The position numbers were made by a program, and so were the translations under genes. Below are positions 47,928 to 62,570 of a stretch of DNA of 64,000 nt, one piece after another. The DNA comes from Rhodospirillales bacterium (GTDB taxonomy: Bacteria > Pseudomonadota > Alphaproteobacteria > Rhodospirillales > Casp-alpha2). The number at the start of each line of letters is the position of its first letter. Position 1 is the stretch's first letter. The stretch covers positions 186,001 through 250,000 of the forward strand of contig JAEPMA010000004.1 in the NCBI GenBank assembly GCA_017644185.1. The letters run 5' to 3'. Under the pieces are notes generated by a model, which was not told where the DNA came from, made no database searches, and saw nothing but the letters and a program-made list of their open reading frames with translations.

Positions 47928-49358
47928 CTATTTAACCGCTTCCCCAGTTCCGCCTCCAGCTGGATGCCAAGTAAAGCGAATGCAAGTTCCTCTGCCATCA
48001 CCTTCACCAATGATGGATATCGTGCCGTTATTGCCTTGAACAAGGCGCTTGGTAATGGCGAGACCCATGCCACTCCCCTCAATGACGTCACGCGGTTTAA
48101 GCGTCTGGAACATCTCAAATACGCGTTCACGGTATTTCGGCGGGATACCCGGACCGTCATCGCAAATGATGAACGCATGGCCATTGAACAATTCCTCAGA
48201 GGTGATTTCGATCCTGCCGCTTTCACTGTCATGGTGTTTCACGGCATTGCTGATCAGATTAAAGAAAACGTGTGCCAAAGGTGTTCTTGGTGAACAGATA
48301 ACCGGCATATCTTCTGCGACCACCATATTAAAGCCGGGGGGGAGTTGGAGATCCTCTTTCATATCTCTCAACATTTCACCGACGTCGACGGTCTCGAAGG
48401 CAATTTCCGCGCGCCCGGCGCGGGAATATGCGAGCAAATCGTCGAGTAATGACTCCAATCTCGTGATCCGACGCCTCATCATATGGATGTGTTCTCGTGA
48501 TTCATCCGTTAACGCCGCACCAGCATCCTCTTCAAGCCAGGTCGCAAGATTGTCGATCCCGCGCAATGGCGCCTTGAAGTCGTGCGACGCGACATAGACG
48601 AAACTGTCCAGGTCGGCACGTTCCTGTTCCATTTTACGAACTGCGTCCGCCAGTCGAATGCGCGCTTGTTCGACGGCCTGGAATACCCGCCCGATGTCGC
48701 CGTCCGCATCGAATTGGACGGGGTTGGTGAGTTCTCCCTCGCCAACCCTGACGATTTCCGTCGACAGCCGCTCGACATTTGCCGTGATTACCCTGAGAAC
48801 TCGAAGATAAAGGATGACCATCAAAACAATGCCGGACAGCAAAACGCCGGTTACGACCACCGTTCCCCACAACGCGAACGATTCCTGGCGTTCCCGATAG
48901 ATCGAAGATATCCGGTCTTTAAGCGCCGACAGAGCCAGTATCTGGTTCAGCAGCCTCGACAGGGCGGCGCGTTTCGCCGCCGCGGCCCGCGCCGGTTCGG
49001 GTATCGCACTTTCGATCCGCGTCAGTTTGCCAAACACAGAGCCCAGGGTCGTGAGCCGCGTTTTTAGTTCGGGCAGGAGACGCGCCGATTCCGGATTCCT
49101 GACCCTCGCATTGTCCAGAAAAGAGCCCAAGCTTTCATGTCGATCCTGCCATTGCTTCAAGGCTCTCGGGGTCCCAGTCGCGAGGTACTCCGTTGTCAAA
49201 TACTGAAGGTCGTTAAGGCCGTTACTCAGCTCCTCGGCAAGGCGGCTTTCCCGGTCCAGGCTCAGATACATTTGCAGGACCGCAAACACAACAACGGTAA
49301 TCACCAGCACGGTGACGATTCCGCTGACCATGACTTTCTTGACCTGACGACGCATCAT
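47928..49358 (-). CDS. Membrane sensor histidine kinase paired with a periplasmic binding protein
   Basis: 476 residues. Two membrane segments (about 9-31 and 163-186) flank an all-helical periplasmic domain of about 130 residues, CHASE3-like by its layout. HAMP region, dimerisation domain with His259 in VYVASHDFKAPLRGID, then ATPase motifs: N-box NLISNAVKHHD, G1 CDDGPGIPPKY and G2 GSGMGLAITKRL. The gene begins 7 nt after an NMT1-type periplasmic binding protein gene, suggesting that the binding protein loads the sensor. No response regulator is in this operon; a single-domain one lies 3 kb away on the other strand. Confidence 0.92.
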   Translation of the reverse strand: MMRRQVKKVMVSGIVTVLVITVVVFAVLQMYLSLDRESRLAEELSNGLNDLQYLTTEYLATGTPRALKQWQDRHESLGSFLDNARVRNPESARLLPELKTRLTTLGSVFGKLTRIESAIPEPARAAAAKRAALSRLLNQILALSALKDRISSIYRERQESFALWGTVVVTGVLLSGIVLMVILYLRVLRVITANVERLSTEIVRVGEGELTNPVQFDADGDIGRVFQAVEQARIRLADAVRKMEQERADLDSFVYVASHDFKAPLRGIDNLATWLEEDAGAALTDESREHIHMMRRRITRLESLLDDLLAYSRAGRAEIAFETVDVGEMLRDMKEDLQLPPGFNMVVAEDMPVICSPRTPLAHVFFNLISNAVKHHDSESGRIEITSEELFNGHAFIICDDGPGIPPKYRERVFEMFQTLKPRDVIEGSGMGLAITKRLVQGNNGTISIIGEGDGRGTCIRFTWHPAGGGTGEAVK

Positions 49359-49365
49359 GGCGGGA

Positions 49366-50364
49366 TTACTTGATCAACTTGACGGCGCCGGGAGCGACCG
49401 ACGATAACGGCCCTGCATCAACGGCGTCCAGAAAATCAGGCACACGGGTGCCGCTTGCATGCCCTTTCTCGATCAGCCATTGCGCCTCCTGCTCCATCAG
49501 GCTGATAAGATTCTGCAAGATTGTGACCTCTAATACGTACTTGTTCCACGTCTCCCGGACGAACACCGGATCAAGCCGGAAGCGCGTAGAGATGATCTCC
49601 TGTGCCTCCGCCGGGTTTTTTGCCGCGAAACTTTCCGCATCCAGCAAAGCCTCTAGCACGGCGCGGGTCTCGCTTTGGTGGGTCTCGATCCAGTTACCCA
49701 TCCCCGCGAGAACAAAGTGGTAATAATAACTGTCCTGCTCCGGCAGCATGAAGAAATTGTCGCCCAGGATCTGCTTGGACTTGTAGACAAAAGGCTCCCA
49801 TACCATCGCCGCGTCGATGGAACCTTTTGCGATCTCGTTGACGATATCCGGTGCACGCAGATTGACGATTGTCGAATCGGTTTCGGCGAGGCCGTTGATC
49901 GCTAGGATCTCACCCAGAAAGAACTCACCAACACCACGCCTCGTCACGCCGATCCGTTTGCCGACGAGATCCCCGATATGTTCAATATCACGGTCCTTAC
50001 GGGCGAACAGGTTCGCCGAATTCACCCGTGCGATCGAAGCGATCAATTTCAAGCCGCGATGCGACATCAGATTTGACACAAACGCGAATTCGGAACTATT
50101 GCCGAAGTGAAGCTCGCCTGCCGCAAGGGCACGCGAGGCACTTACCCCGGATGAAAATTCGAGCAGCTTGACGTCGACACCACGGGCTTCGAAAAAACCC
50201 TTCTTTTCGGCGATCCACATCAAATGCCCTGTAGGAGTAGAGCCGATGATTACCTCTTCGGCGCATGCCCGGGATGTCAGCACATTCAACGCTGCCAGTG
50301 CCAAAACGAATACCGGAATTATTCCGGATAACCTGGACGGCACCGAACGAAGAACAAACGACAT
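49366..50364 (-). CDS. Orphan NMT1/SsuA-type periplasmic substrate-binding protein
   Basis: 332 residues with a signal peptide ending near SRACA. The mature protein, IIGSTPTGHLMWIAEKKGFF then VDVKLLEFSSGVSASRALAA, is the standard first lobe of SsuA/TauA/ThiY-like binding proteins; ANLFARKDRDIEHIGDLVGK and KRIGVTRRGVGEFFLGEIL continue the pattern. No permease or ATPase gene is nearby; the next gene is a sensor kinase. The start is chosen for GGGAGG 11 bases upstream; earlier ATGs exist. Ligand class could be a sulfonate, nitrate, pyrimidine or aromatic acid. Confidence 0.88.
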   Translation of the reverse strand: MSFVLRSVPSRLSGIIPVFVLALAALNVLTSRACAEEVIIGSTPTGHLMWIAEKKGFFEARGVDVKLLEFSSGVSASRALAAGELHFGNSSEFAFVSNLMSHRGLKLIASIARVNSANLFARKDRDIEHIGDLVGKRIGVTRRGVGEFFLGEILAINGLAETDSTIVNLRAPDIVNEIAKGSIDAAMVWEPFVYKSKQILGDNFFMLPEQDSYYYHFVLAGMGNWIETHQSETRAVLEALLDAESFAAKNPAEAQEIISTRFRLDPVFVRETWNKYVLEVTILQNLISLMEQEAQWLIEKGHASGTRVPDFLDAVDAGPLSSVAPGAVKLIK

Positions 50365-50733
50365 GCTTGTTGAGCCTCCCGGAAGATCTGGCACTATTTT
50401 AGGCATCGTACTTACCCGGCTCGAGATCGTCGACACCCGTCGACCGAGGGCGTCCCAATCCGTCCGAACAGACCTTGTTATATAGCGGGCAATGCAGGCA
50501 AACGAGTTTCTTCGCTACATACTTTACATTTTTAAATCGAAGAATTGTTCACGAATCACGGGTATACTCTATCAACGGCAACCATTGATCTTGAATGATA
50601 AAATGGCTGTGTCGTGGCGTGTTTGTCAGGAAAACCCCTTGATCCAAAGGCAACATCCGGGAACAATCCAGGCGCAGTATGCACTTCCGTACATTGAAAA
50701 CTGAACCAACCCGCGGTTTGTCGAGGTTATTTC
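50365..50733. promoter_or_regulatory. Divergent regulatory region of the signalling island
   Basis: A 369-nt gap between two divergent operons. It contains TACATACTTTACATTT at 50516-50531, a close copy of a sequence before the 51610 gene. Small open frames inside (for example 50492-50704) have no coding character I would trust. No tRNA or known RNA was seen. Confidence 0.5.
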
Positions 50734-52882: not shown

Positions 52883-53953
52883 TCAGGCGAGCGCCTCCTT
52901 GATCCGCATGACGGCAAGCGCCCCCTGCTCGTCGGCGGCGACCAGGATGCGGCCGTCCGGGCTCCAGGCCAGCCCGGCGATCGCCGCACCTCCCCCAGGT
53001 CGCGCGATCATTGCCGTTTCCTGTTCGATGTTACCGATCATCACCGTGCCGTCGCTGTAGCCGCCGGCGACCACCTTGTCGGACGGATGCGCCGCGACGT
53101 GCATGACGATCCCGTTGTAGACATAACCGAACTCCAGCGGTGGCTTGCCGGACGGGCCGTTGCCGCTGCAATCCCACGAGGTCACCGTGTCTGCGCCGCT
53201 CGCCGCCACGTAACGGCCGTCCGCTGTCCACGAAAGGCTGCGGATCTTCGACGGATAACCGCTCATTCGCATGCCCTTTTTGTCATCCCAGCGCCAGCAA
53301 TGCATTTCGCGGTCCTGCATCGCCGTCACGATGAAGGTGCCGCAGGGACTCCAGCCGATGGCCGTATGCGAGCCATGCCATTCAAGGCGCACCGGATCCG
53401 CACCGCTGCCCGACGTATCCCAAACGCTGACGCCACCATAATGCGCGACCGCGATCCATTTGCCGTCCGGCGAGAACGAAATCCCCGAGAGGGTGCTGGG
53501 ATGGTCGTCGCGGCGCATCACCTCCGCACCGGACGCATCGATGACCGTCAAGGTGCGGCGTGCCGCGAACGCGCGGCGTGCCGCGTCGTGATGAACCGCC
53601 ACATGCTCGACCCAGGCGTCGGGGACGCGGGAGATCACGTCAACGTCCTTACCGGCGATCCGACACAACTCGCCTTTATCGGTGCCGACCAGAACGCCTG
53701 TTCCACCGACGTCGGTCGCGGCCGCGAGCGGCGTTGCGGAAAGTGACGCGACGCTTGAAACCAGCGCCCCATCCAATGTCAGCGACAGTGATTTGACCGC
53801 ACCGTCACCGAACCCGGCGACCGCCCGTCCGGCCGTGGGCTCGATGACCAGGAACGTCGGGTGAACGCCGATGGGCTTGGTTTCGGACAGCCCGATGGAC
53901 GACGAAACCCTGCGGGCGCCGGCGTCCGGGTTGCTCATTGCCTGTGCGCTCAT
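52883..53953 (-). CDS. WD40-repeat protein
   Basis: 356 residues with at least six WD-like blades; clear ones are [60 protein letters not shown] and [20 protein letters not shown]. No signal peptide is evident. Likely a cytoplasmic beta-propeller scaffold. Its ATG overlaps the stop of the G3E GTPase gene, so the two are translationally coupled and probably interact. Function unknown. Confidence 0.87.
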
Positions 53954-54918
53954 GCCGCCACCGTACAGGCCTGGAAGGCTTCGTTCAGTTCTCCTTCATC
54001 GAGATTCCGGCCGATAAACACCAGTTTGCTCGATCGGTTTCCCGGTGCCCACGGTGCGCCCCAGGCGCTGTCCATGACCATGTGCACGCCCTGAAAGACG
54101 TAGCGGTTTTCCTGACCTTCGAGATTGAGGATTCCCTTGGTCCTGAGCACATCGACGCCGCGCTCCATGATGAAGCCGCGAATCCACTGCGAGAACTTCT
54201 CGGGCTCGATCGGCTGATCGGTGGTCAGAGAAATACTTATGATGTCCTCGTCGTGCTCGTGGTCGTCCTCTTCGTCCAGAAGCCCCGGTTCGATCTCGAG
54301 AATGCGGGTCAGGTCGAAGGCGTGACGCTCCATCACGTCTTCCAGCGGCGCGCCGCTTTTGACCGTTTCGATCACCTTGGCGAATTTGTTGAGGGCGTGA
54401 ATTTTCGATTTCACGTGGCTCAACGTATCGGCATCCACGAGGTCGGTCTTGTTCAACAGAATGATGTCGGCGAACGCGACCTGCTCGGCCAGTTCGTGTT
54501 CCTCATCGACGGCGCTGAGGAAGTGCTTGGCATCGACCACCGTCACCACGGCATCAAGCGCCACCTTGCTCTGGACGTCTTCGTCGACGAAGAACGTCTG
54601 CACGACCGGGGCCGGATCGGCGAGGCCGGTGGTTTCGATGATCATGCCGTCGAACTCGTCAGCGCGCTTCATCAGGGTCGAGATGATGCGGATCAGGTCG
54701 CCGCGGACCGTACAGCAGATGCACCCGTTGTTCATTTCAAAGATCTCTTCGTCGGCGTCGACGACAAGCTCGTTATCGATCCCTTCCTCGCCGAATTCGT
54801 TGACGATGACGGCGTATTTCTTGCCGTGGCGTTCCGTCAGGATCCGATTGAGCAGTGTCGTCTTGCCGGCCCCGAGATACCCCGTGATCAGTGTGACCGG
54901 GACTTTTGGGCTGTCCAT
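53950..54918 (-). CDS. G3E-family GTPase (CobW/COG0523 metallochaperone)
   Basis: 322 residues. Walker [16 protein letters not shown], the switch Glu in [13 protein letters not shown], the metal-binding CICC in [13 protein letters not shown], Walker B-like [13 protein letters not shown] and the guanine motif LLNKTDLVD. The middle has a His/Asp/Glu-rich stretch ([11 protein letters not shown]), a likely metal-binding loop. COG0523 proteins deliver Zn, Co or Ni to client enzymes. Lying next to a HupE-type permease and cyanase, it may serve a metalloenzyme of nitrogen metabolism. Confidence 0.92.
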
Positions 54919-54993
54919 GATAAGAAACCTCCGCTGGCGTTTGTTGTCAGAATGACCGCCGGACGCCCGATGCGCCCGGCGGCTCCGGGATCA

Positions 54994-55662
54994 TTACAGA
55001 AGGACGCTGAACGCAATGCCTTCGATGTTTTCGAGCGTCAGGAACATGCCGACACCGGCGACGACCGCCCCTGCCAGCCGGGCTTCGACGGCGGAAGATT
55101 CAACCGCCCGGAACAGCTTCGTGACGGCCCAACCGGACGCGACGGCAATGCCGTACTGCAGGACGCCAAGCCCGATCAGGTAACCGACCAGCACCTCGCC
55201 ACCCATCGCCGCTTCTTGAGCGGCGATCGTGTCGCCGAACGCGGACCCGTGAAACAGACCGAACACGGCGAACAAGGCAACGGTCGGCACCAGGCCGAGT
55301 GCACGCCCGGACAGCACCAGACCGCCGACCGCGAGCAGCGACAGACCGATGATGATTTCCTTCGCCGGCAGACCGACACCAAGCGACATCATCAAACACC
55401 CCAGCAGCATGGCGACGATGTAACCGGCGGGCGCCAGATAGCGATGGCCGGTGTAAAGGGCCGCAATCCCGACGGCGAGCACGAAGAACAAATGATCAAA
55501 ACCAAGCAGCGGATGCCCGATGCCGGACAGCAAACCGTGGTTGAACGTTTCCATCGGCGCGCCGCCCAGCGGGTGGTGCGCCAGCGCGGGTCCGGCGATC
55601 ACGGATGCGATGCCGGCGACGACGGGTACGGATGCGAATTTGCGGAAGCTCAGCGTTTTCAT
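54994..55662 (-). CDS. HupE/UreJ family metal permease
   Basis: 222 residues with a cleavable signal (cleaved near PALAHH, leaving an N-terminal HH) and about six membrane segments. The family signature HPLLGFDHLFFVLAVG and the second motif GLFHGSAFGD supply the histidines and aspartate that bind nickel or cobalt. Members sit in hydrogenase and urease operons. Here it lies between cyanase and the G3E GTPase, all on one strand. Confidence 0.92.
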   Translation of the reverse strand: MKTLSFRKFASVPVVAGIASVIAGPALAHHPLGGAPMETFNHGLLSGIGHPLLGFDHLFFVLAVGIAALYTGHRYLAPAGYIVAMLLGCLMMSLGVGLPAKEIIIGLSLLAVGGLVLSGRALGLVPTVALFAVFGLFHGSAFGDTIAAQEAAMGGEVLVGYLIGLGVLQYGIAVASGWAVTKLFRAVESSAVEARLAGAVVAGVGMFLTLENIEGIAFSVLL

Positions 55663-55693: not shown

Positions 55694-56146
55694 TTAGTAC
55701 GATTTATAGGGAAGGAACTTGCCGGTCATCATGACCTGGACACGGTCGCCCTTTGGATCTTCGATTCGCGTGACGCTCATGTCGTAATCGATGGCGCTCA
55801 TAATGCCGTCGCCGAATTCTTCTTCGATCAGCGACTTGAAGGTGCTCCCGTAGACCATGACGATCTCGTAGAACCGATAGATCAACGGGTCGGTCGGAAT
55901 CTGCGTCGGCAGCGAACCGCGATACGGCACCGTCATCAGCAGCGCGGTCTCATCCGGCGAGAAGTTCAGGCCCATCACGTTGCCCGCCTTCTCGACCTCT
56001 TCCTTGGTCAGGGACAGCTGGCCGAGCATGGCCGCGCACGTCCACTCCTTGGACTTGCCGATGGCATCGCCAACGTCCTCCCACTTGAATCCCGTCATCA
56101 TCTTGTGTGCGACGATTTTTTCGGTGAGTTCGGCTCGTGTCATCAT
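55694..56146 (-). CDS. cynS: Cyanase (cyanate hydratase/lyase)
   Basis: 150 residues, normal length. The C-terminal catalytic core is intact: DPLIYRFYEIVMVYGSTFK carries the active-site Arg and Glu, and FGDGIMSAIDYDM the active-site Ser. The N-terminal helix-turn-helix-like region with KWEDVGDAIGKSKEWTCAAM is typical. Cyanase turns cyanate and bicarbonate into ammonia and CO2, giving nitrogen and removing a toxic compound. AAAGGAG precedes the start. It follows the ABC transporter by 31 nt. Confidence 0.97.
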   Translation of the reverse strand: MMTRAELTEKIVAHKMMTGFKWEDVGDAIGKSKEWTCAAMLGQLSLTKEEVEKAGNVMGLNFSPDETALLMTVPYRGSLPTQIPTDPLIYRFYEIVMVYGSTFKSLIEEEFGDGIMSAIDYDMSVTRIEDPKGDRVQVMMTGKFLPYKSY

Positions 56147-56177: not shown

Positions 56178-57092
56178 TCAGGCGCGCGCCCGGACCTCGC
56201 CCGGGCTTTCGGCCGTCGGCCCGACGACCGGCGGATGTCTGGGGTCGTAATCCGGCGAAGACAGTTCCTCCTGGAAACTGGCCGAACGATTGACTAGGAA
56301 TTCGATCAGGTGGTTGCGCACCGGGTAATAGTTTTCGTGGGTATGCATGTTGTTCCGGGTGCGGTCGCGCGGCAGCGTGTTCTCGACGATCTCGCAAATG
56401 CGCGCCTCGGGTCCGTTGGTCATGAGGATAATCTTGTCGGCGAGCAGGATCGCTTCGTCGATGTCGTGGGTGATCATGAAGACCGTCTGTTCCGTCTCCG
56501 AACAGATCGATAACAACTCATCCTGGAGGGAGCCCCGCGTCAGCGCGTCGAGCGCGCTGAACGGCTCGTCGAGCAGCATGATCTTGGGCTCGATCGCCAT
56601 GGCGCGGGCGATGCCGACACGCTGTTTCATCCCGCCCGACAACTGCGACGGCTTCTTGTTTTCGGACCCGGTCAGATGCACCAGGTTGATGAATTTCTGG
56701 CAGTGCTTCTGAATGTCTGCCTTGCCCATCTTCGGCCACTTCGATTTCACCGCGAAGGCGGTGTTGCCCATCACCGTCATCCAAGGCATCAGCGCGTGGC
56801 TTTGGAAGACGACCGCGCGGTCGAGGCTGGTACCGACCACCTCTTCGCCGCCGACGATGACCGTGCCGTCGCTGGCGGTGGCGAGACCGGCAAGAATATT
56901 CAACAGCGTCGTCTTGCCGCACCCGGAATGCCCGATCAGGCAGACGAATTCGCCCGGATTGATGGTGAACCAGATATCGCTGAAGACCGTCAGTTCGTCG
57001 TCGCCATCCGGCGCGGGGAACCGTTGTGCGAGCGCTTCGACTTTAATGCGTGCCGAGGCGCTGGATGGGTTTTCGGTGGGGCTGTCGCTCAT
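56178..57092 (-). CDS. NrtD/CynD-type ABC transporter ATP-binding protein
   Basis: 304 residues. Walker [13 protein letters not shown]-loop [11 protein letters not shown], signature [15 protein letters not shown], Walker [13 protein letters not shown] and switch His ITHDIDEA. The segments [20 protein letters not shown] and [15 protein letters not shown] are close to nitrate/cyanate-type ATPases, and the C-terminal extension with [23 protein letters not shown] is the NrtD/CynD hallmark. It energises uptake with the permease 15 nt upstream. Confidence 0.92.
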
Positions 57093-57107: not shown

Positions 57108-57947
57108 CTATTCGCTGTAGGTGACGAGTTTCGTCAGGTAGGAGAGGCAGAGATCGAGCACCATGCCGATCATGCCGATGAAGAAGATCGCGGCGATCAC
57201 GTTGGTGATCGACAGGTTGTTCCACTCGTTCCAGACGAAGTAGCCGATGCCGGTACCGCCGACGAGCATCTCGGCGGCGACGATCACCAGCCAGGCGATG
57301 CCGACCGAGATACGCATCCCGGTCATGATCGTGGGGGCGGCGGCGGGCAGGATGACCTGGAACGCGGTCCTGAAGTTGCCGACCTCGAGCGTCTTGGCGA
57401 CGTTCAGCCATTCCTTGCGGACACTGGCGACGCCGAACGCCGTGTTGGTCAGCATCGGCCAGACCGAACAGATAAAGATCACGAACACCGACGAGATGAT
57501 CGAGTCCTTGATCGTGTAGAGCGCCAGCGGCATCCATGCCAGCGGCGAGACCGGCTTCATGATCTGTATGAATGGATCGAGCGCGCGATAGAAAAGCGGC
57601 GACATGCCGATCAGAAAGCCGAGCGGCACGGCGACCGCGACGGCGAGACCGAACCCGACAAGCACGCGGAGGATCGAGTATCCTAGCTGAATACCGATGC
57701 CCTTGTCGTTTGGACCGGCATCGTAGAAGGGATCCATGATGTGATCCCAGATCTGCGCGCCCACCTCGAGGGGCCCCGGCATGGCCGAGGCCCCCTTGGC
57801 GGTTGCCCCCATCAAGGCGGCGTATTCGGGGTCCATGTTCGCCGCCGACCCCGTGCCCTTGCCGAGGGACACCTCCCAAAGCATCGCAAACGCGAAGAAC
57901 AGTACAACTGAGAGAATGACGGCGCGGGTTCGGAGTGGCAGCGACAT
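57108..57947 (-). CDS. NrtB/CynB-type ABC transporter permease
   Basis: 279 residues with six or seven membrane segments: one at about 8-27 and a block from about 90 to 270. The EAA-like coupling loop appears around EWLNVAKTLEVGNFRTAFQV with ILPAAAPTIMTGMRISVGIA, as in NrtB. It forms the channel for the substrate delivered by the large binding protein encoded 11 nt upstream. The order binding protein, permease, ATPase, cyanase is that of known cyanate uptake operons. Confidence 0.92.
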   Translation of the reverse strand: MSLPLRTRAVILSVVLFFAFAMLWEVSLGKGTGSAANMDPEYAALMGATAKGASAMPGPLEVGAQIWDHIMDPFYDAGPNDKGIGIQLGYSILRVLVGFGLAVAVAVPLGFLIGMSPLFYRALDPFIQIMKPVSPLAWMPLALYTIKDSIISSVFVIFICSVWPMLTNTAFGVASVRKEWLNVAKTLEVGNFRTAFQVILPAAAPTIMTGMRISVGIAWLVIVAAEMLVGGTGIGYFVWNEWNNLSITNVIAAIFFIGMIGMVLDLCLSYLTKLVTYSE

Positions 57948-57958
57948 GAACTTACCTC

Positions 57959-59590
57959 TTACGTTCTTTTGATGGCGAAGCTGTCGACGTACGCGTCCGC
58001 CGCCATGGGATCGAACTCCTTACCCATGATGGTGTACTTCTCGTACGTCTCTTTCGGCGGGGTGGCATAGGGACCCTTGAGGTCCATCTCGGCCATCAGC
58101 TTGGCGGCTTCGGTCGCAAGATAGACCTCCTCCGCGACGGCCTTGTAGTCGATGTCACCCTTGACGTAGCCCCAGCGCTTCATTTGCGACAGGATCCAGA
58201 CCGCCATCGAATGCCACGGGAACGGGTCGAAATCGATCCGGTCCGGGACCTTCTTGACGTTGCCGAGACCGTCCGCAAACGTGCCGACGAGCACCTGCTC
58301 CAGAACCGTCACCGGCTGGTTCAGATAGTTCTTCGGTGCGATCGCAGCCGAGATTTCCTTTCGGTTCGACTTGATCGACGCGTAATCAGTCGCATCCAGG
58401 ATCGACTTCCAAAGCGCCATGAACGTATTGGGATTTTCCTCGATGAACGCTTTCGACGCGGCGAATGCGCAGCACGGGTGTTTCTCCCAAATGTCCTTGG
58501 TCAGCTTGTGGATGAAACCGACGCCGTCGTAGACCGCCCGCTGGTTGAACGGATCCGGCGACAGATAACCGTCGACGTTGTCCGCCCTGAGGTTGGCGAC
58601 CATTTCCGGCGGCGGCAGCACGCGGATCTGGATATCCTGATCCGGATCGAGCCCGTGTTCCGCCACGTAATAGCGCAGCAGGAAGTTGTGCATCGAATAT
58701 TCGAAGGGCACCGCGAACTTGAAGCCCTTCCACATCTTCGGATCGTTCTTGTCCTCGTGTTTCTTCGAGAGAACGATCGCCTGGCCGTTGATGTTCTCGA
58801 CCGCGGGCATGGTCCAGGGGTTCGGGTTCGAACCCGCACCGAGCGAGATCGCGAGCGGCATCGGTGTCAGCATGTGGGCCGCGTCGTATTCGCCCGAAAG
58901 CGATTTGTCGCGGCTCACGGCCCAACCGGCCGTCTTGATCACGTCGACGTCCAGCCCGTACTTCTTATAGAAGCCGAGTGGGTGCGCCATGATGATCGGC
59001 GTTGCACAGGTGATCGGCACGAACCCGACGTTCAGCTTGGTCTTTTCAAGCTTACCGCCGGCCTGCGCCATTTCGACCGCCATCGCCTTCGCTTCTTCCA
59101 GCGGGAAGATCGACGCGATCGCCGCCGACGCGGCACCCGCACCGACCGCCTTCAGGAAGGCACGGCGATGCATGTCGGTACCGAACATGCCGCGCATGAC
59201 GGCGGATTCGACGGCACGCGCCATCGTCCCTTCGAGATCCGAAGGATCCGGTTCCGCTTCCAGGGCTTCCATGTCGCGCTGATGCTTCTGCACCGCACGC
59301 ATCTGGTCGCCGCGACCGGCGGCCTCGGCACCCTGACGCAACGAAACGCATGCGGGCTCCGGGCAATCGGCGTCGAAGCAGTTGGCCGGATTGTGGGCCA
59401 TCTGCGGCGTTGGGCCGGCATCGATACGGTCAATGCCGTCTGCAACGTCTTCGCACTGGAAACGCGACGCATCTTTACCCTGGGCCTGCGCCATGGCCAT
59501 GTTGTGCTCGACGATAGAACGGTGCTGCCCGCACGGACAGCCGTTCCACAAGAGCTTGTCGGGATCGAACGGGTCTGCAAATGCTCCCAT
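57959..59590 (-). CDS. NrtA/CynA-type binding protein with Cys-rich N-terminal extension and internal Tat-like signal
   Basis: 543 residues. Residues 141-163 (HRRAFLKAVGAGAASAAIAS and on) look like a Tat-type signal, but 140 residues precede it, including Cys18, 20, 46, 71, 76 and 81 (CPCGQH, CFDADCPEPAC). The binding domain (about 180-540) has LNVGFVPITCATPIIMAHPL and the NrtA-like LPPPEMVANLRADNVDGYLS with the CCAFAASK segment. The start has GGAGTGAATCTA before it; a start just before the Tat-like part has no ribosome site. A Cys-rich head is known in alphaproteobacterial NrtA-type proteins, role unknown. Ligand is nitrate or cyanate; cyanase next door favours cyanate. Confidence 0.88.
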   Translation of the reverse strand: MGAFADPFDPDKLLWNGCPCGQHRSIVEHNMAMAQAQGKDASRFQCEDVADGIDRIDAGPTPQMAHNPANCFDADCPEPACVSLRQGAEAAGRGDQMRAVQKHQRDMEALEAEPDPSDLEGTMARAVESAVMRGMFGTDMHRRAFLKAVGAGAASAAIASIFPLEEAKAMAVEMAQAGGKLEKTKLNVGFVPITCATPIIMAHPLGFYKKYGLDVDVIKTAGWAVSRDKSLSGEYDAAHMLTPMPLAISLGAGSNPNPWTMPAVENINGQAIVLSKKHEDKNDPKMWKGFKFAVPFEYSMHNFLLRYYVAEHGLDPDQDIQIRVLPPPEMVANLRADNVDGYLSPDPFNQRAVYDGVGFIHKLTKDIWEKHPCCAFAASKAFIEENPNTFMALWKSILDATDYASIKSNRKEISAAIAPKNYLNQPVTVLEQVLVGTFADGLGNVKKVPDRIDFDPFPWHSMAVWILSQMKRWGYVKGDIDYKAVAEEVYLATEAAKLMAEMDLKGPYATPPKETYEKYTIMGKEFDPMAADAYVDSFAIKRT

Positions 59591-59606
59591 TAGATTCACT
59601 CCAAAT

Positions 59607-59641
59607 AAAAAACGCCCGACACAGATCCCGCACATGCGGGC
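59607..59641 (-). terminator. Conditional terminator of the ANTAR-controlled leader
   Basis: On the minus strand GCCCG (59637-59641) can pair with CGGGC (59614-59618), directly followed by G and six T residues at 59607-59612. A competing hairpin CCCGC-ATGT-GCGGG (59627-59640) uses the same GC-rich strand. The stem is short, so this is a candidate only. Confidence 0.45.
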
Positions 59642-59668
59642 CTGCATTCGGACGTCCTGGTCCTTTGC

Positions 59669-59757
59669 GGGGGCCATCTTTGTCCCCCTGGTGAACCCGG
59701 CAACGCCGTTGCTGCCCGGTTCGGTTCTCTTGCGGTCCAGCGCCATTGCCGGTCCGC
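59669..59757 (-). promoter_or_regulatory. ANTAR-type RNA target: two A1/G4 hexaloop hairpins
   Basis: Reading the minus strand, hairpin P1 (59757 to 59732) has ten stem positions (GCGGACCGGC with GCTGGACCGC, one A-A mismatch and one G-T pair) around loop AATGGC. Hairpin P2 (59688 to 59669) has seven (GGGGGAC with GGCCCCC, one A-G mismatch) around loop AAAGAT. Both six-base loops have A at position 1 and G at position 4, the defining signature of ANTAR-binding RNAs. A third hairpin (59722 to 59693) lies between. The gene upstream encodes an ANTAR protein and the gene downstream is the transporter. Confidence 0.72.
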
Positions 59758-59810
59758 AGATTCTGATGCCGCGAGCGCCGCCCTAATGGCGCGCTCCAGC
59801 GGCGAAACTT

Positions 59811-60416
59811 TTATAGCTGCATCACTTCCGCAGCTTCGTTTACCATTTCTGCGACTTCGATCAGACGCACGCCCCGCTGCATCGCGCGTTTGCGGAGTAG
59901 GGCGTAGGCTTCATCTTCGTCGATTTTTCGTTCGCGCATGATGATGCCCTTGGCGCGCTCGATCAGCTTACGCTCCCGCAGGGCATTGCGCGCTTCATCC
60001 AATTCTTCGCGCAAACCGCGCGTATTCGAAAAATTGGCTTTCGCCAGATCGATCGCGGAGCGCATCCGGTTGCCGTTCACCCCAACCACCACGCAGGCGT
60101 TGATGCCGGCGGCCACGGCGGCGTACATCGCATCGGACGAGCCGTCTTCGGTAATCAGAATTGTCGGTCGGCGCGTTTCGTCCGGCAATGCGCGCAACGT
60201 TGCCAAAAGCGCATCGTCGGCCTTGCTCGCGTAAATCATCATCGTGTCTGCCTGCGAGCGCGCCAGCGTGTCGGGGAGGTCGCCCAGATCCTGCACCTCG
60301 TCGGTGACCCCATAGCCCTGCTCGACAAGAAGTCGCCGGGTCGCCGCACGACGTTCCGGATCCTGATCGAAGATCAGAACGCTGGTCCCCACAGGCGTCA
60401 TCAAGCGAATTTGCAT
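59811..60416 (-). CDS. ANTAR-domain RNA-binding response regulator (NasT-like)
   Basis: 201 residues. A receiver-like N-terminal domain (about 8-125) with VLIFDQDPERRAATRRLLVE but without a clear phospho-acceptor in the usual place (the segment reads DTMMIYASKADD). A coiled linker, then ANTAR (about 140-200): LRERKLIERAKGIIMRERKI with DEDEAYALLRKRAMQRG. ANTAR proteins bind twin hexaloop RNAs and prevent termination. A sigma-54 promoter lies upstream, a twin-hexaloop leader downstream. The longer frame starts with TTG; ATG is used here. Confidence 0.9.
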   Translation of the reverse strand: MQIRLMTPVGTSVLIFDQDPERRAATRRLLVEQGYGVTDEVQDLGDLPDTLARSQADTMMIYASKADDALLATLRALPDETRRPTILITEDGSSDAMYAAVAAGINACVVVGVNGNRMRSAIDLAKANFSNTRGLREELDEARNALRERKLIERAKGIIMRERKIDEDEAYALLRKRAMQRGVRLIEVAEMVNEAAEVMQL

Positions 60417-60500
60417 CGGCGAACGTCTGCCCCTCTTGTCAAACAATTCTCGACCGCTATCACGGTCCGCGCTCAACCGCCGGCATCCACCGGCGCCTCA

Positions 60501-60547
60501 GCCCGTCATGGGGCAATCATCCTCTCTGGGTCGTCCGCCGTTGGACG
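60501..60547 (-). promoter_or_regulatory. Possible second ANTAR-type hairpin pair in the regulator's own leader
   Basis: CGTCC-AACGGC-GGACG (60547 to 60532) is a perfect 5-bp stem with an A1/G4 hexaloop. About 17 nt later GCCC-CATGAC-GGGC (60514 to 60501) has a six-base loop with G4 but C at position 1. Only the first fits the rule; no T-run follows. Autoregulation is possible. Confidence 0.35.
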
Positions 60548-60584
60548 GAGAGGGGCAGGATTTCTCCTGCAGGTAATCTTCTAT

Positions 60585-60602
60585 CAGCAAACCCTGTGCC
60601 AA
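60585..60602 (-). promoter_or_regulatory. Sigma-54 (RpoN) promoter
   Basis: On the minus strand TTGGCACAGGGTTTGCTG matches the -24/-12 consensus: GG at 60600-60599 and GC at 60588-60587, ten nt between them. Transcription would start near 60575, about 160 nt before the ANTAR regulator start. The upstream sequence is AT-rich, as expected for activator looping; no clear NtrC site was found by eye. Confidence 0.8.
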
Positions 60603-60729
60603 CTGGCCGGGACTCTCTAATTTATTGGTTTTATTTGATTCTTGAGTCCAAAGGGGATGCCGCAACCAACAAAGTCTGACTAAAATATAATCAATTTTAT
60701 TTTCTTGATTAAATTATATGCTATTTAAA

Positions 60730-61308
60730 TCAAATACCGAGTTCGCTGGCGGCCAGAATGCTTTCCGCCACCTCGACCATTTTCTTGCCCTTGTCACGCG
60801 CCATCCGCCGGATGGCATTGTAGGCGTCCGCCTCGGGCATCTGCCGGCGCTGCATCAGAAGCGATTTGGCGCGCTCGATGGTTTTCCGGTCGGCAAGCTC
60901 CACTTCCGCTTCGTTTGCCCGCTTTTCCAGCTCACTGAACGCTTCGAACCGCGAAATCGCCAGCTCCACCACCGGCTTGATCCGTTCGCGCTTGAGCCCG
61001 TCGACGACATAGGCGCTGACACCGGCGCGGATTGCGGCGGTGGTTCTTTCCCGGTCGCTTTCGTCGACGAACATCGCGATCGGGCGCTTCACCTCTTTCG
61101 AGACGCGGAACATCTGCTCGATAGTGTCGCGGTTCGGGTTCTCAAGATCGATGAGGATGACGTCAGGGCCGATCTGGGCAATGCGGCTCACCAGATCGTG
61201 CATCTCGACCATATGATGGACATCGTCATAGCCTGCATCGCGCAACCCCTCCAGGAGCACTTGCGCACGTTCCGGACTTTCGTCGATGACCAGAATTCTT
61301 GAAGGCAC
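60730..61308 (-). CDS. Second ANTAR-domain response regulator
   Basis: About 192 residues from a GTG start (a second GTG six codons earlier is possible). The receiver has ILVIDESPERAQVLLEGLRD and an acceptor region DVILIDLENPNRDTIEQMF with Asp in the right place. A helical linker FSELEKRANEAEVELADRK leads to the ANTAR part TIERAKSLLMQRRQMPEADA then YNAIRRMARDKGKKMVEVAE. Unlike the next regulator it keeps an acidic phospho-site. The two ANTAR genes in tandem may differ in input: one phosphorylation, one ligand or partner. Confidence 0.88.
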   Translation of the reverse strand: MPSRILVIDESPERAQVLLEGLRDAGYDDVHHMVEMHDLVSRIAQIGPDVILIDLENPNRDTIEQMFRVSKEVKRPIAMFVDESDRERTTAAIRAGVSAYVVDGLKRERIKPVVELAISRFEAFSELEKRANEAEVELADRKTIERAKSLLMQRRQMPEADAYNAIRRMARDKGKKMVEVAESILAASELGI

Positions 61309-61661
61309 GCCCGTTACCTCGACCACGTGAAACGCTACCCCGCAATCACTAAAGCGGTGAGTTTCGGACGTTGCTCCCTGTCCCGGCCCCCCGGGTTATT
61401 CTTATTCGTTGGATTAATGCTATCGCCAGTTCCAAACCCTTTCAAGATGCATAAATGACGATCATTCGGATTGAAGGATCCAAAAGACAATCAACCGACC
61501 ATCAAAGTGGCTTCCAGGTCGTGGCAGGGGGCTTTCAAGCAACGCAAAAAAGCGCATCCATGTGACGCTTCGCACTTGCAGCGGCGCAACAGAATAGGCG
61601 CATCACCGACGGCCCCTGTTCGCATCGCCCGCCGGACACCCGGCGGCGCAAATGACCGCGC
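61309..61661. other. Intergenic region without recognised gene
   Basis: 353 nt between the ANTAR gene and tonB, both on the minus strand. I see no tRNA, no convincing small gene and no strong terminator; a GC-rich imperfect hairpin lies near 61629-61645. It presumably carries the promoter of the ANTAR gene. Confidence 0.5.
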
Positions 61662-62570
61662 TCAGTACAGTTGGAACTGCACCGGCACCGAGAGGGTCAA
61701 CTCACCTTGGGCAAAATCATCGGGAAGCGGCGGCAAAGGCGTCGCGCGCTCAATCATCTTAATCACTTCCTCATCGAGAGCCTTATAACCGGTGCCCCTC
61801 TGAATGCGGGCCGCCAGCACCTCCCCGCCGCGGTTCATCGTGAACGTCAGCACCGCAGTGCCCTCTTGGCGACGACGCCGCGCCGATGACGGATATTCCT
61901 TGTGTTGTTCCAACCATGCCTGCAACCGGGCGAAGTAACTGTCCGCCGACCCAGGGCGGCCACCGGAAGAAGCGTTGTCGCCACTCCCGACATTCGCGGA
62001 TTTCTTCGTCCCCGACTTACCGGCTGATCCGGCCACAGCGGGCGCCTGGGTGGATGGTTGCGCCTGGGGCGGCGCCGTAGACGCGACTTCCTTCGGGGCC
62101 ACGGGCTCAGGCTTGGACTCCGGCTCGGCGACTTCGACCGGTTTCGCCGTTTCCGGCTGCACTTCCTTAGGCGGCGTTGGTTTTGTCGGGACCTTCGCCG
62201 CTTCCGTCTTCGGCTTTACTTCGGCGACAGGCACAGTTTCTGCGTTTGGCGGCTCGACCGCTTCGACCTCGATAGGCTCAGGTGGCTCAATCGCGTCCAG
62301 TGGCTCCATAACCTCGGCGGTTTCCACGGGCGGGGGCTCCACGGGCTCGACCACGTCTTTTTCTGGCGCGTCCACCGTCTTCGCTTCAGGCGGCGCCACC
62401 GCCGTCGCACCCGGCGCACCGCCCGCCATACCGAACGAAATCTCCATCCCCCCGACACCCAGATTGGCAGCGCCACTTTCCTTCGGTTCCCAAAGCAACA
62501 GGATCAGTGATCCGTGCGCCAGAACCGCGACAAGGAACGCCACCAGCCAGTGTTTGCGGCGAATGCTCAT
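61662..62570 (-). CDS. TonB-family energy transducer
   Basis: 302 residues. An N-terminal membrane segment (WLVAFLVAVLAHGSLILLLW), a long Pro/Glu/Val/Lys-rich periplasm-spanning region (about 65-165), then a Gly/Ser linker and the TonB C-terminal domain from about 210: YFARLQAWLEQHKEYPSSAR, GTAVLTFTMNRGGEVLAARI and ALDEEVIKMIERATPLPPLP. Together with ExbB and two ExbD proteins upstream it would transmit proton-motive force to outer-membrane receptors. Its start overlaps the second exbD by 4 nt. Confidence 0.93.
   Translation of the reverse strand: MSIRRKHWLVAFLVAVLAHGSLILLLWEPKESGAANLGVGGMEISFGMAGGAPGATAVAPPEAKTVDAPEKDVVEPVEPPPVETAEVMEPLDAIEPPEPIEVEAVEPPNAETVPVAEVKPKTEAAKVPTKPTPPKEVQPETAKPVEVAEPESKPEPVAPKEVASTAPPQAQPSTQAPAVAGSAGKSGTKKSANVGSGDNASSGGRPGSADSYFARLQAWLEQHKEYPSSARRRRQEGTAVLTFTMNRGGEVLAARIQRGTGYKALDEEVIKMIERATPLPPLPDDFAQGELTLSVPVQFQLY

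Follow-up and report, generated by a model that had tools for sequence, protein, structure and literature searches.

ANTAR-target RNAs are known from the leaders of eut, nasF and amiE (Ramesh 2012; Walshe 2022), where two hexaloop hairpins stand in tandem, with C-G closing pairs, a G at loop position 4 (G4) and short linkers, and the second hairpin (P2) overlaps the terminator, so that the two are mutually exclusive (PMC3369931, PMC3369936); these and the other papers are cited here from their accessible portions. Linkers measure 5-12 nt in eut leaders and 2-25 nt in an actinobacterial survey (PMC3369931, PMC8164766). Structural work on EutV, in the sections available, has a single ANTAR dimer visiting two tightly spaced hexaloops in turn, with G4 stacking on Tyr164 and A1 making no contact; lengthening the linker by 20 nt abolished antitermination (PMC8934654). 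In the NasS-NasT system of Paracoccus, an ANTAR gene lies upstream of nasA, whose expression is under nitrogen control and whose leader carries hairpins and a terminator (PMC3795266, PMC5424462), the former described in the accessible text as "a series of regulatory hairpins", data not shown (PMC3795266). AmiR, of the AmiC-AmiR system, is an ANTAR regulator with a pseudo-receiver (PMC3369936). The portions of the ANTAR and NasT literature that were searched speak of dual hairpins, of hairpins HI and HII, or of a hairpin series, and three- or four-hairpin arrays may already have been described elsewhere.

The locus studied here follows this architecture and lengthens it. On the minus strand of the window (the whole stretch of 64,000 nucleotides that was analysed), a 220-nt leader runs from the stop codon of an ANTAR gene, ANTARb (59811), to the ATG of the first transporter gene (59590) and contains four hexaloop hairpins, H1 to H4 (Table 1), where known leaders have two. 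Tandem hexaloops, C-G closing pairs, G4, short linkers, a last hairpin exclusive with the terminator and an ANTAR protein in the genome are all shared with ANTAR-target RNA, whereas loop position 1 is not always A, the target is a cyanate operon and the regulator lacks the phospho-aspartate. That the leader is a longer form of the known two-hairpin ANTAR switch, placed before a cyanate operon, is well supported by sequence comparison.

The initial annotation had described twin hairpins with loops AATGGC and AAAGAT, separated by an unusually long linker of 43 nt that itself folds as a hairpin. Both hairpins are present (H1 and H3), each stem holds the single purine mismatch that was reported (A-A and A-G), and the terminator-like stem, a strong one, does stand with its T6 run before the ribosome site, being followed by GGAG and then the ATG. 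The intervening segment also folds, but it measures 42 nt and is itself a hexaloop hairpin with A1 and G4 (H2). Because H2 and the overlooked H4 bring the number of hairpins to four, joined by ordinary linkers of 8 nt (H1-H2), 4 nt (H2-H3) and 5 nt (H3-H4) that agree with the short linkers of ANTAR-target RNA, the long-linker dual hairpin gives way to a four-hairpin chain. G4 is found in all four loops and A1 in three, H4 having C1. RNAfold pairs A1 with U6 in the AAAGAT loop of H3, which is accordingly drawn as a tetraloop and may have four bases in the free RNA. The leader terminator was missing from the output of a simple scan for terminators, probably because of bulges in its stem. A further strong hairpin, lacking a hexaloop, lies at 59767-59800 between the ANTARb stop and H1, and a GC-rich counterpart was judged by eye to occur in relatives of genus g13.

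Table 1. Features of the leader, the cyn operon and the ANTAR genes, with positions in the window.
Feature	Position	Strand	Sequence or assignment	Evidence
ANTARa	60730..61326	(-)	NasT lineage; D54 kept; Arg at EutV M172	Pfam ANTAR + Response_reg
Sigma54-type promoter element	60586..60601	(-)	TGGCACAGGGTTTGCT	exact motif match
ANTARb-leader hairpin, A1/G4	60532..60547	(-)	CGTCC[AACGGC]GGACG	matches in L035, L036, L037, L006, L008
ANTARb-leader hairpin, C1/G4	60501..60514	(-)	GCCC[CATGAC]GGGC	hairpin scan
ANTARb	59811..60416	(-)	pseudo-receiver, D54 replaced by Tyr	Pfam ANTAR 3.7e-19
H1 hairpin	59731..59758	(-)	TGCGGACCGGC[AATGGC]GCTGGACCGCA	hairpin scan, alignment, shuffles
H2 hairpin, A1/G4	59693..59722	(-)	GAACCGGGCAGC[AACGGC]GTTGCCGGGTTC	hairpin scan, alignment, shuffles
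H3 hairpin	59669..59688	(-)	GGGGGAC[AAAGAT]GGCCCCC	hairpin scan, alignment
H4 hairpin, C1/G4	59650..59663	(-)	GGAC[CAGGAC]GTCC; P2-like candidate antiterminator	
Intrinsic terminator + T6 run	59607..59657	(-)	predicted to be mutually exclusive with H4	folding, RNAalifold
Substrate-binding protein (NMT1_2), first operon gene	57959..59590	(-)		PF13379 1.2e-83; TAT_signal_seq
ABC permease (ntrB-like)	57108..57947	(-)		profile matches
ABC ATPase (ntrCD-like)	56178..57092	(-)		profile matches
Cyanase CynS	55694..56146	(-)		NF002773 3.4e-60, PF02560
HupE/UreJ protein	54994..55662	(-)	same direction	profile match
CobW-type GTPase	53950..54918	(-)		profile matches
WD40-repeat protein	52883..53953	(-)		profile match

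The proposed link to a cyanase operon is borne out by the genes directly downstream, which encode the transporter and CynS. In the NMT1_2 binding protein, an N-terminal extension of about 140 residues, rich in Cys, precedes an internal twin-arginine signal. The HupE/UreJ, CobW and WD40 genes (52883-55662) join cyanase in several relatives, a hint that metal handling may be one aspect of the operon. Elsewhere in the window, a histidine kinase lies beside a secreted-looking NMT1-like binding protein (47928-50436), a possible sensor pair; as nothing links the kinase to the switch, it was discarded as its sensor. We also rejected, as almost certainly wrong, the reading of the leader as a coding N-terminal extension of the transporter protein in a frame open to 59746: the frame is open for 195 nt upstream in the window and for 831 nt in L036, but it meets an in-frame stop within 153 nt in 7 of 9 relatives, the exceptions being L036 and L041 (contig ends).

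The leader was aligned with those of eight relatives (L036, L035, L037, L008, L006, L043, L041 and L038), which were found through searches with the transporter protein and with ANTARb. Across these nine leaders, G4 is invariant in 36 of 36 loops; G4 was a condition of the hairpin scan, but the invariance is that of the alignment columns. A2 of H1-H3 does not vary either, nor does the closing C-G pair in H1, H2 and H4. Position 1 is A in 18, G in 12 and C in 6 of the 36 loops: all four loops of L043, L041 and L038 have A1, as do H1-H3 of the window and of L036, whereas G1 occurs in H1-H3 of L035, L037, L008 and L006 (one genus), and C1 in the H4 loop of six leaders. Hence, where A1 and G4 had both been expected to persist, with A1 as a defining base, only G4 has done so. 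The limited retention of A1 counts against the switch reading, because A1 mutations impair EutV induction in the portion of the study available (PMC3369931). The genus with G1 loops has four ANTAR proteins, and insulation of cyn from other ANTAR proteins by G1 was considered as an explanation; the idea was dropped as unsupported, since genome G086 has three ANTAR proteins yet A1 in H1-H3, and since the ANTARb leader still has A1 in the G1 genus. Positions 1 and 6 are able to pair in 11 of the 36 loops, that of H3 in the window included, and RNAfold closes this pair in H3 of the window and in H1 and H3 of L037, while positions 1 and 5 are able to pair in none (0/36).

Compensatory stem changes, which the initial annotation had proposed as a check, were found. 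In six leaders, both partners differ in 6 stem pairs, where shuffles average 1.7 and 0 of 500 reach that number, although four of the six come from one genus and the shuffle control ignores relatedness; 89.2% of cells are paired, compared with 24-52% with slid partners. With each of the two alignments, RNAalifold recovered H1-H3 as well as the terminator. The four pairs of the H4 stem do not vary in the alignment, so that H4 provides no covariation evidence, and its G4 is also paired within the terminator.

At least four hairpins were found by scan in the window, L036, L037, L043, L006, L007 and L008, and three in L035, L041, L009 and L044 (the last with doubtful loops); in L035 and L041, H1 becomes visible at looser scan settings only. 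The four-hairpin case is weakest for L038, where the scan yields two hairpins and does not chain H1 and H2, H1 being seen singly and H2, with a double mismatch, in the alignment only. L041 and L043 have additional linkers of 15-22 nt. A universal number of four is contradicted by L039, L045, L051 and L123, where a cyn-type ANTAR gene lies near but the cyn leader has one or two such hairpins only; in the L044 cyn leader, likewise near such a gene, the chain is unclear. These ANTAR-linked leaders with fewer hairpins, together with the possible 1-6 pairs, slightly lower our confidence in the switch. The shorter leaders also bear on whether H3-H4 alone works, as an ordinary dual hexaloop with H1 and H2 as idle relics of a duplication. 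Such a pair would have its canonical 5-nt linker and its terminator overlap, two hairpins suffice in published leaders, as far as the accessible text describes them (PMC3369931), and in g13 leaders GGACGATGACG around the loop is common to H1 and H3, as after duplication. We nonetheless judge it unlikely that H1 and H2 are idle, because their stems change with compensation but their A2 and G4 stay the same in 9 of 9 leaders, and because arrays of three hairpins are found repeatedly before nitrate genes at other loci.

Folding predictions point to a switch between H4 and the terminator. When the RNA was cut at the end of H4, the four hairpins were predicted in 4 of 4 leaders (window, L043, L041 and L037; L043 with one extra small hairpin), and in the full-length RNA the terminator displaced H4 in all four. 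Because the 3′ half of H4 is also the 5′ arm of the terminator, the two structures are mutually exclusive in these predicted folds, which supports the overlap expected of an ANTAR-type leader. With its conserved array of G4 hexaloops, the leader is of the ANTAR type, as had been suggested, and we consider it likely that the segment which separates ANTARb from the cyn operon works as a switch by transcription antitermination, with ANTARb probably binding its hairpins. In the mechanism that we propose, a sigma54 promoter, presumably active under nitrogen limitation, would transcribe ANTARb first, and polymerase would next reach the terminator. With enough competent ANTARb, dimers would grip the hairpins through flipped G4 bases and keep H4 folded, thereby blocking the terminator and allowing the cyn genes to be read. 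By analogy, H3-H4 with its 5-nt linker fits the EutV model and would be the canonical P1-P2 pair, leaving H1-H2 as a surplus pair with an 8-nt linker that would most likely raise the local protein concentration or steepen the response. What the sequences show is the anatomy of the leader, its conservation in eight relatives, the mutually exclusive folds (as predictions) and the residues of the proteins; binding, dimer number, read-through and promoter use are what we infer in this scheme.

Chance is a poor explanation of the array. The 220-nt leader folds more stably than 200 of 200 dinucleotide shuffles (z -5.45). When its sequence was shuffled 20,000 times with dinucleotides preserved and linkers of up to 10 nt were allowed, four or more G4 hexaloop hairpins formed a chain in 2 shuffles, and three or more hairpins with both A1 and G4 in 0 of 20,000. 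The longest chain in the real leader comprises five hairpins when G4 is required, the fifth being the tip of the terminator itself, and 0, 1 or 2 when the G is required elsewhere. Both strands of the 64-kb window hold three chains of at least two A2/G4 hexaloop hairpins; two directly precede ANTARb and cyn, and the third lies at 1794-1843 on the plus strand. In a scan of leaders with G4 required, at least three hairpins were found in 11 of 85 real rows, some leaders being entered twice from two collections (L007/L037, L009/L035), against 9 of 850 mononucleotide-shuffled rows.

Sixty-three cyn loci with no ANTAR gene detected (L052-L114; 1.26 Mb of strand) yielded 0 arrays of at least three hairpins and 19 pairs, whereas 39 loci around ANTAR genes, with the former set amounting to 4.6 times their DNA, yielded 5 chains of three and 16 pairs. 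We therefore find it very improbable that the terminator simply attenuates transcription or closes the ANTARb transcript, with hairpins that ANTAR proteins do not bind and cyn read from another promoter. The lack of covariation in H4 would agree with such an arrangement, as would the one sigma70-like site found in 59400-61800, a number equal to chance, which lies upstream of ANTARa; the absence of long arrays from cyn loci with no detected ANTAR gene, the invariant G4 of four loops and the mutual exclusion of H4 and terminator argue against it.

Upstream of ANTARb lies a perfect sigma54-type element (Table 1). The 4.16-Mb genome contains five exact matches, and six to the reversed pattern that served as control; because this count is not enriched, weight rests on the place and recurrence of the element. 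By a relaxed pattern run without a chance control, 8 of 11 relatives have a similar site ahead of their ANTAR gene (L035, L036, L037, L006, L008, L039, L044 and L123), and none was seen in L038, L045 and L051. A promoter survey, in the part available, predicts sigma54 control of genes for cyanate lyase and ANTAR proteins (PMC12316311). Two further hexaloop hairpins stand between the sigma54-type element and ANTARb. A counterpart of the first was not seen in the 6 of 11 relatives other than those named in Table 1, and the CATGAC loop of the second was found in 5 of 11 (L035, L036, L037, L006 and L008). No U run was seen after these hairpins. Autoregulation of ANTARb is possible.

The genome (99.87% complete) encodes two ANTAR proteins, both at this locus. 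ANTARb matches EutV, Rv1626 and NasR, and in a comparison of residues, from which two partial rows were dropped, it retains R142, K143, K149, E160, Y164, R168, M172 and R177, including all three EutV contact residues E160, Y164 and M172. At the positions of N173 and R175 it carries Q and G; the accessible EutV data record loss of binding in the triple mutant N173A/R175A/R177A (PMC8934654). In the set of ANTARb and 11 cyn-type relatives, M172 is present in 12 of 12 cases, and no member (0 of 12) has the receiver aspartate. Conversely, ANTARa and its orthologs have the aspartate in 6 of 6 and Arg for M172 in 6 of 6, a replacement found in 0 of 52 other ANTARs; the ANTAR proteins compared outside these two sets, 40 in number, all have M172 (40/40). 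Judged by M172, ANTARa may be unable to bind RNA, given that M172A abolished RNA binding by EutV in the same available text (PMC8934654), and its phosphorylation is doubtful because receiver Lys104 is missing. A tree with several long branches places ANTARa among the NasT proteins, whereas ANTARb belongs to a different group with 20 members, made up of cyn-linked ANTARs and eight others (100/99). The locus thus departs from NasS-NasT in that ANTARb lies outside the NasT group, cyanase replaces nitrate reductase and no NasS was found: the two PF13379 proteins of the genome, the transporter's own and one with a secreted-looking N-terminus, are not NasS-like by eye, a search that misses any NasS outside that family. 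Likewise, no AmiC-like partner was identified here, although ANTARb shares the pseudo-receiver of AmiR.

The paired losses in the two proteins suggest, from their residues, a division of labour. One form of it, an ANTARa-ANTARb heterodimer, or an RNA-blind ANTARa that restrains ANTARb until a signal arrives and so replaces NasS, we consider possible but doubtful. The losses are complementary, M172 being a residue that EutV needs for RNA binding, and the two genes lie no more than about 5 kb apart in the window, g13 and G086; but the g13 genomes G033 and G035 have unrelated genes between them, the missing Lys104 makes phosphorylation of ANTARa questionable, and genomes G020, G065, G005 and G099 (completeness 86, 88, 96 and 99%) have one ANTAR protein each. 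As G020 and G065 have four-hairpin leaders, the G065 ANTAR gene being on another contig, these four genomes make ANTARa seem dispensable for the basic switch, and it looks like an addition in three genera. In genus g13, an extra ANTAR gene lies just past the cyn WD40 gene (L156:7776-8387; L032, L033 and L034); it belongs to a distinct clade, and a sigma54-type site of its own stands close by.

To follow the array beyond the window, a model, R1, was built from H2-H4 of 11 leaders, since an alignment of all four hairpins (A3) misaligned L043. At E 0.01, R1 found matches in 13 of the 385 genomes searched for the class and in 20 of the 317 searched for the order, counts that include the leaders of the window and of other training loci. 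L169 and L170, outside the training set, have three-hairpin arrays and a U run before NMT1_2 genes, and matches in L188, L189 and L191 precede reductases of the nitrite-reductase type. Among nine genes that follow R1 matches, 5 belong to NMT1_2 and 3 to the nitrite-reductase type; the ninth (L166) has no Pfam match at 1e-10. Inspection, which covered matches other than L196-L198, revealed no array at ten (L171, L176-L179, L190 and L192-L195), two hairpins at L175 and L187 and an implausible pair at L199; the chain of four seen at L172 has doubtful first loops. The A2 count of the nas-type loops proves nothing, because A2 was required in collecting them, and some three-hairpin chains (L139, L147) contain odd loops. 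Arrays of more than two hairpins thus recur in ANTAR-type leaders, with clear fours so far only at cyn, and because three-hairpin arrays stand before nitrate genes elsewhere, four is an extension and not a new class.

The leader did not reach membership of an Rfam family. A covariance-model search gave 14.6 bits against the narK RNA RF03032, for a gathering score of 43.2 that was reached by 0 of 13 related loci; L170, L185 and L169 scored 31-32 bits. The RF03032 consensus contains a hairpin with the same AACGGC hexaloop, and narK would have two hexaloops against four in this leader. Its consensus opens with a sigma54-like GGCACAGCTCTTGCT and ends with a possible second hexaloop, CGAC[AAAGAC]GTCG, that is unmarked in the structure line. 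This suggests that narK RNA is a promoter plus an ANTAR dual hexaloop, a target of NasT, which fits the NasT hairpin predicted before narK in Bradyrhizobium, where the accessible text also reports increased narK expression in a nasT mutant (PMC6759348).

The premise that ANTAR antitermination is centred on nitrate proved too narrow, as ammonium, urea, nitrogenase and glutamate genes are already listed in the part of the earlier survey available (Ramesh 2012, PMC3369931), the main text of which contains no word starting with 'cyan'. No paper joining cyanase and antitermination was found in the literature searched, most subscription papers lying outside its scope, and the two papers examined among those that mention both ANTAR and cyanate do not join these subjects in the portions covered. 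On a broader reading, speculative and in our view rather unlikely, alphaproteobacterial multi-site arrays (three hairpins for nitrate, four for cyanate) would be read by several dimers, a NasT-derived protein lacking the RNA-plug methionine would act in the cyanate system of three genera as a switch, at the protein level, for the receiver-dead but RNA-competent ANTARb, and position 1 (A, G or C) would be a variable code and no fixed requirement. Natural arrays of three and four hairpins offer a test of the one-dimer model, namely whether more dimers are recruited and whether the response is steeper, and natural G1 and C1 loops a test of the proposal that A1 merely prevents cross-loop pairing. 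If the switch reading is true, cyanate use in these bacteria would be placed under antitermination by a four-hairpin leader.
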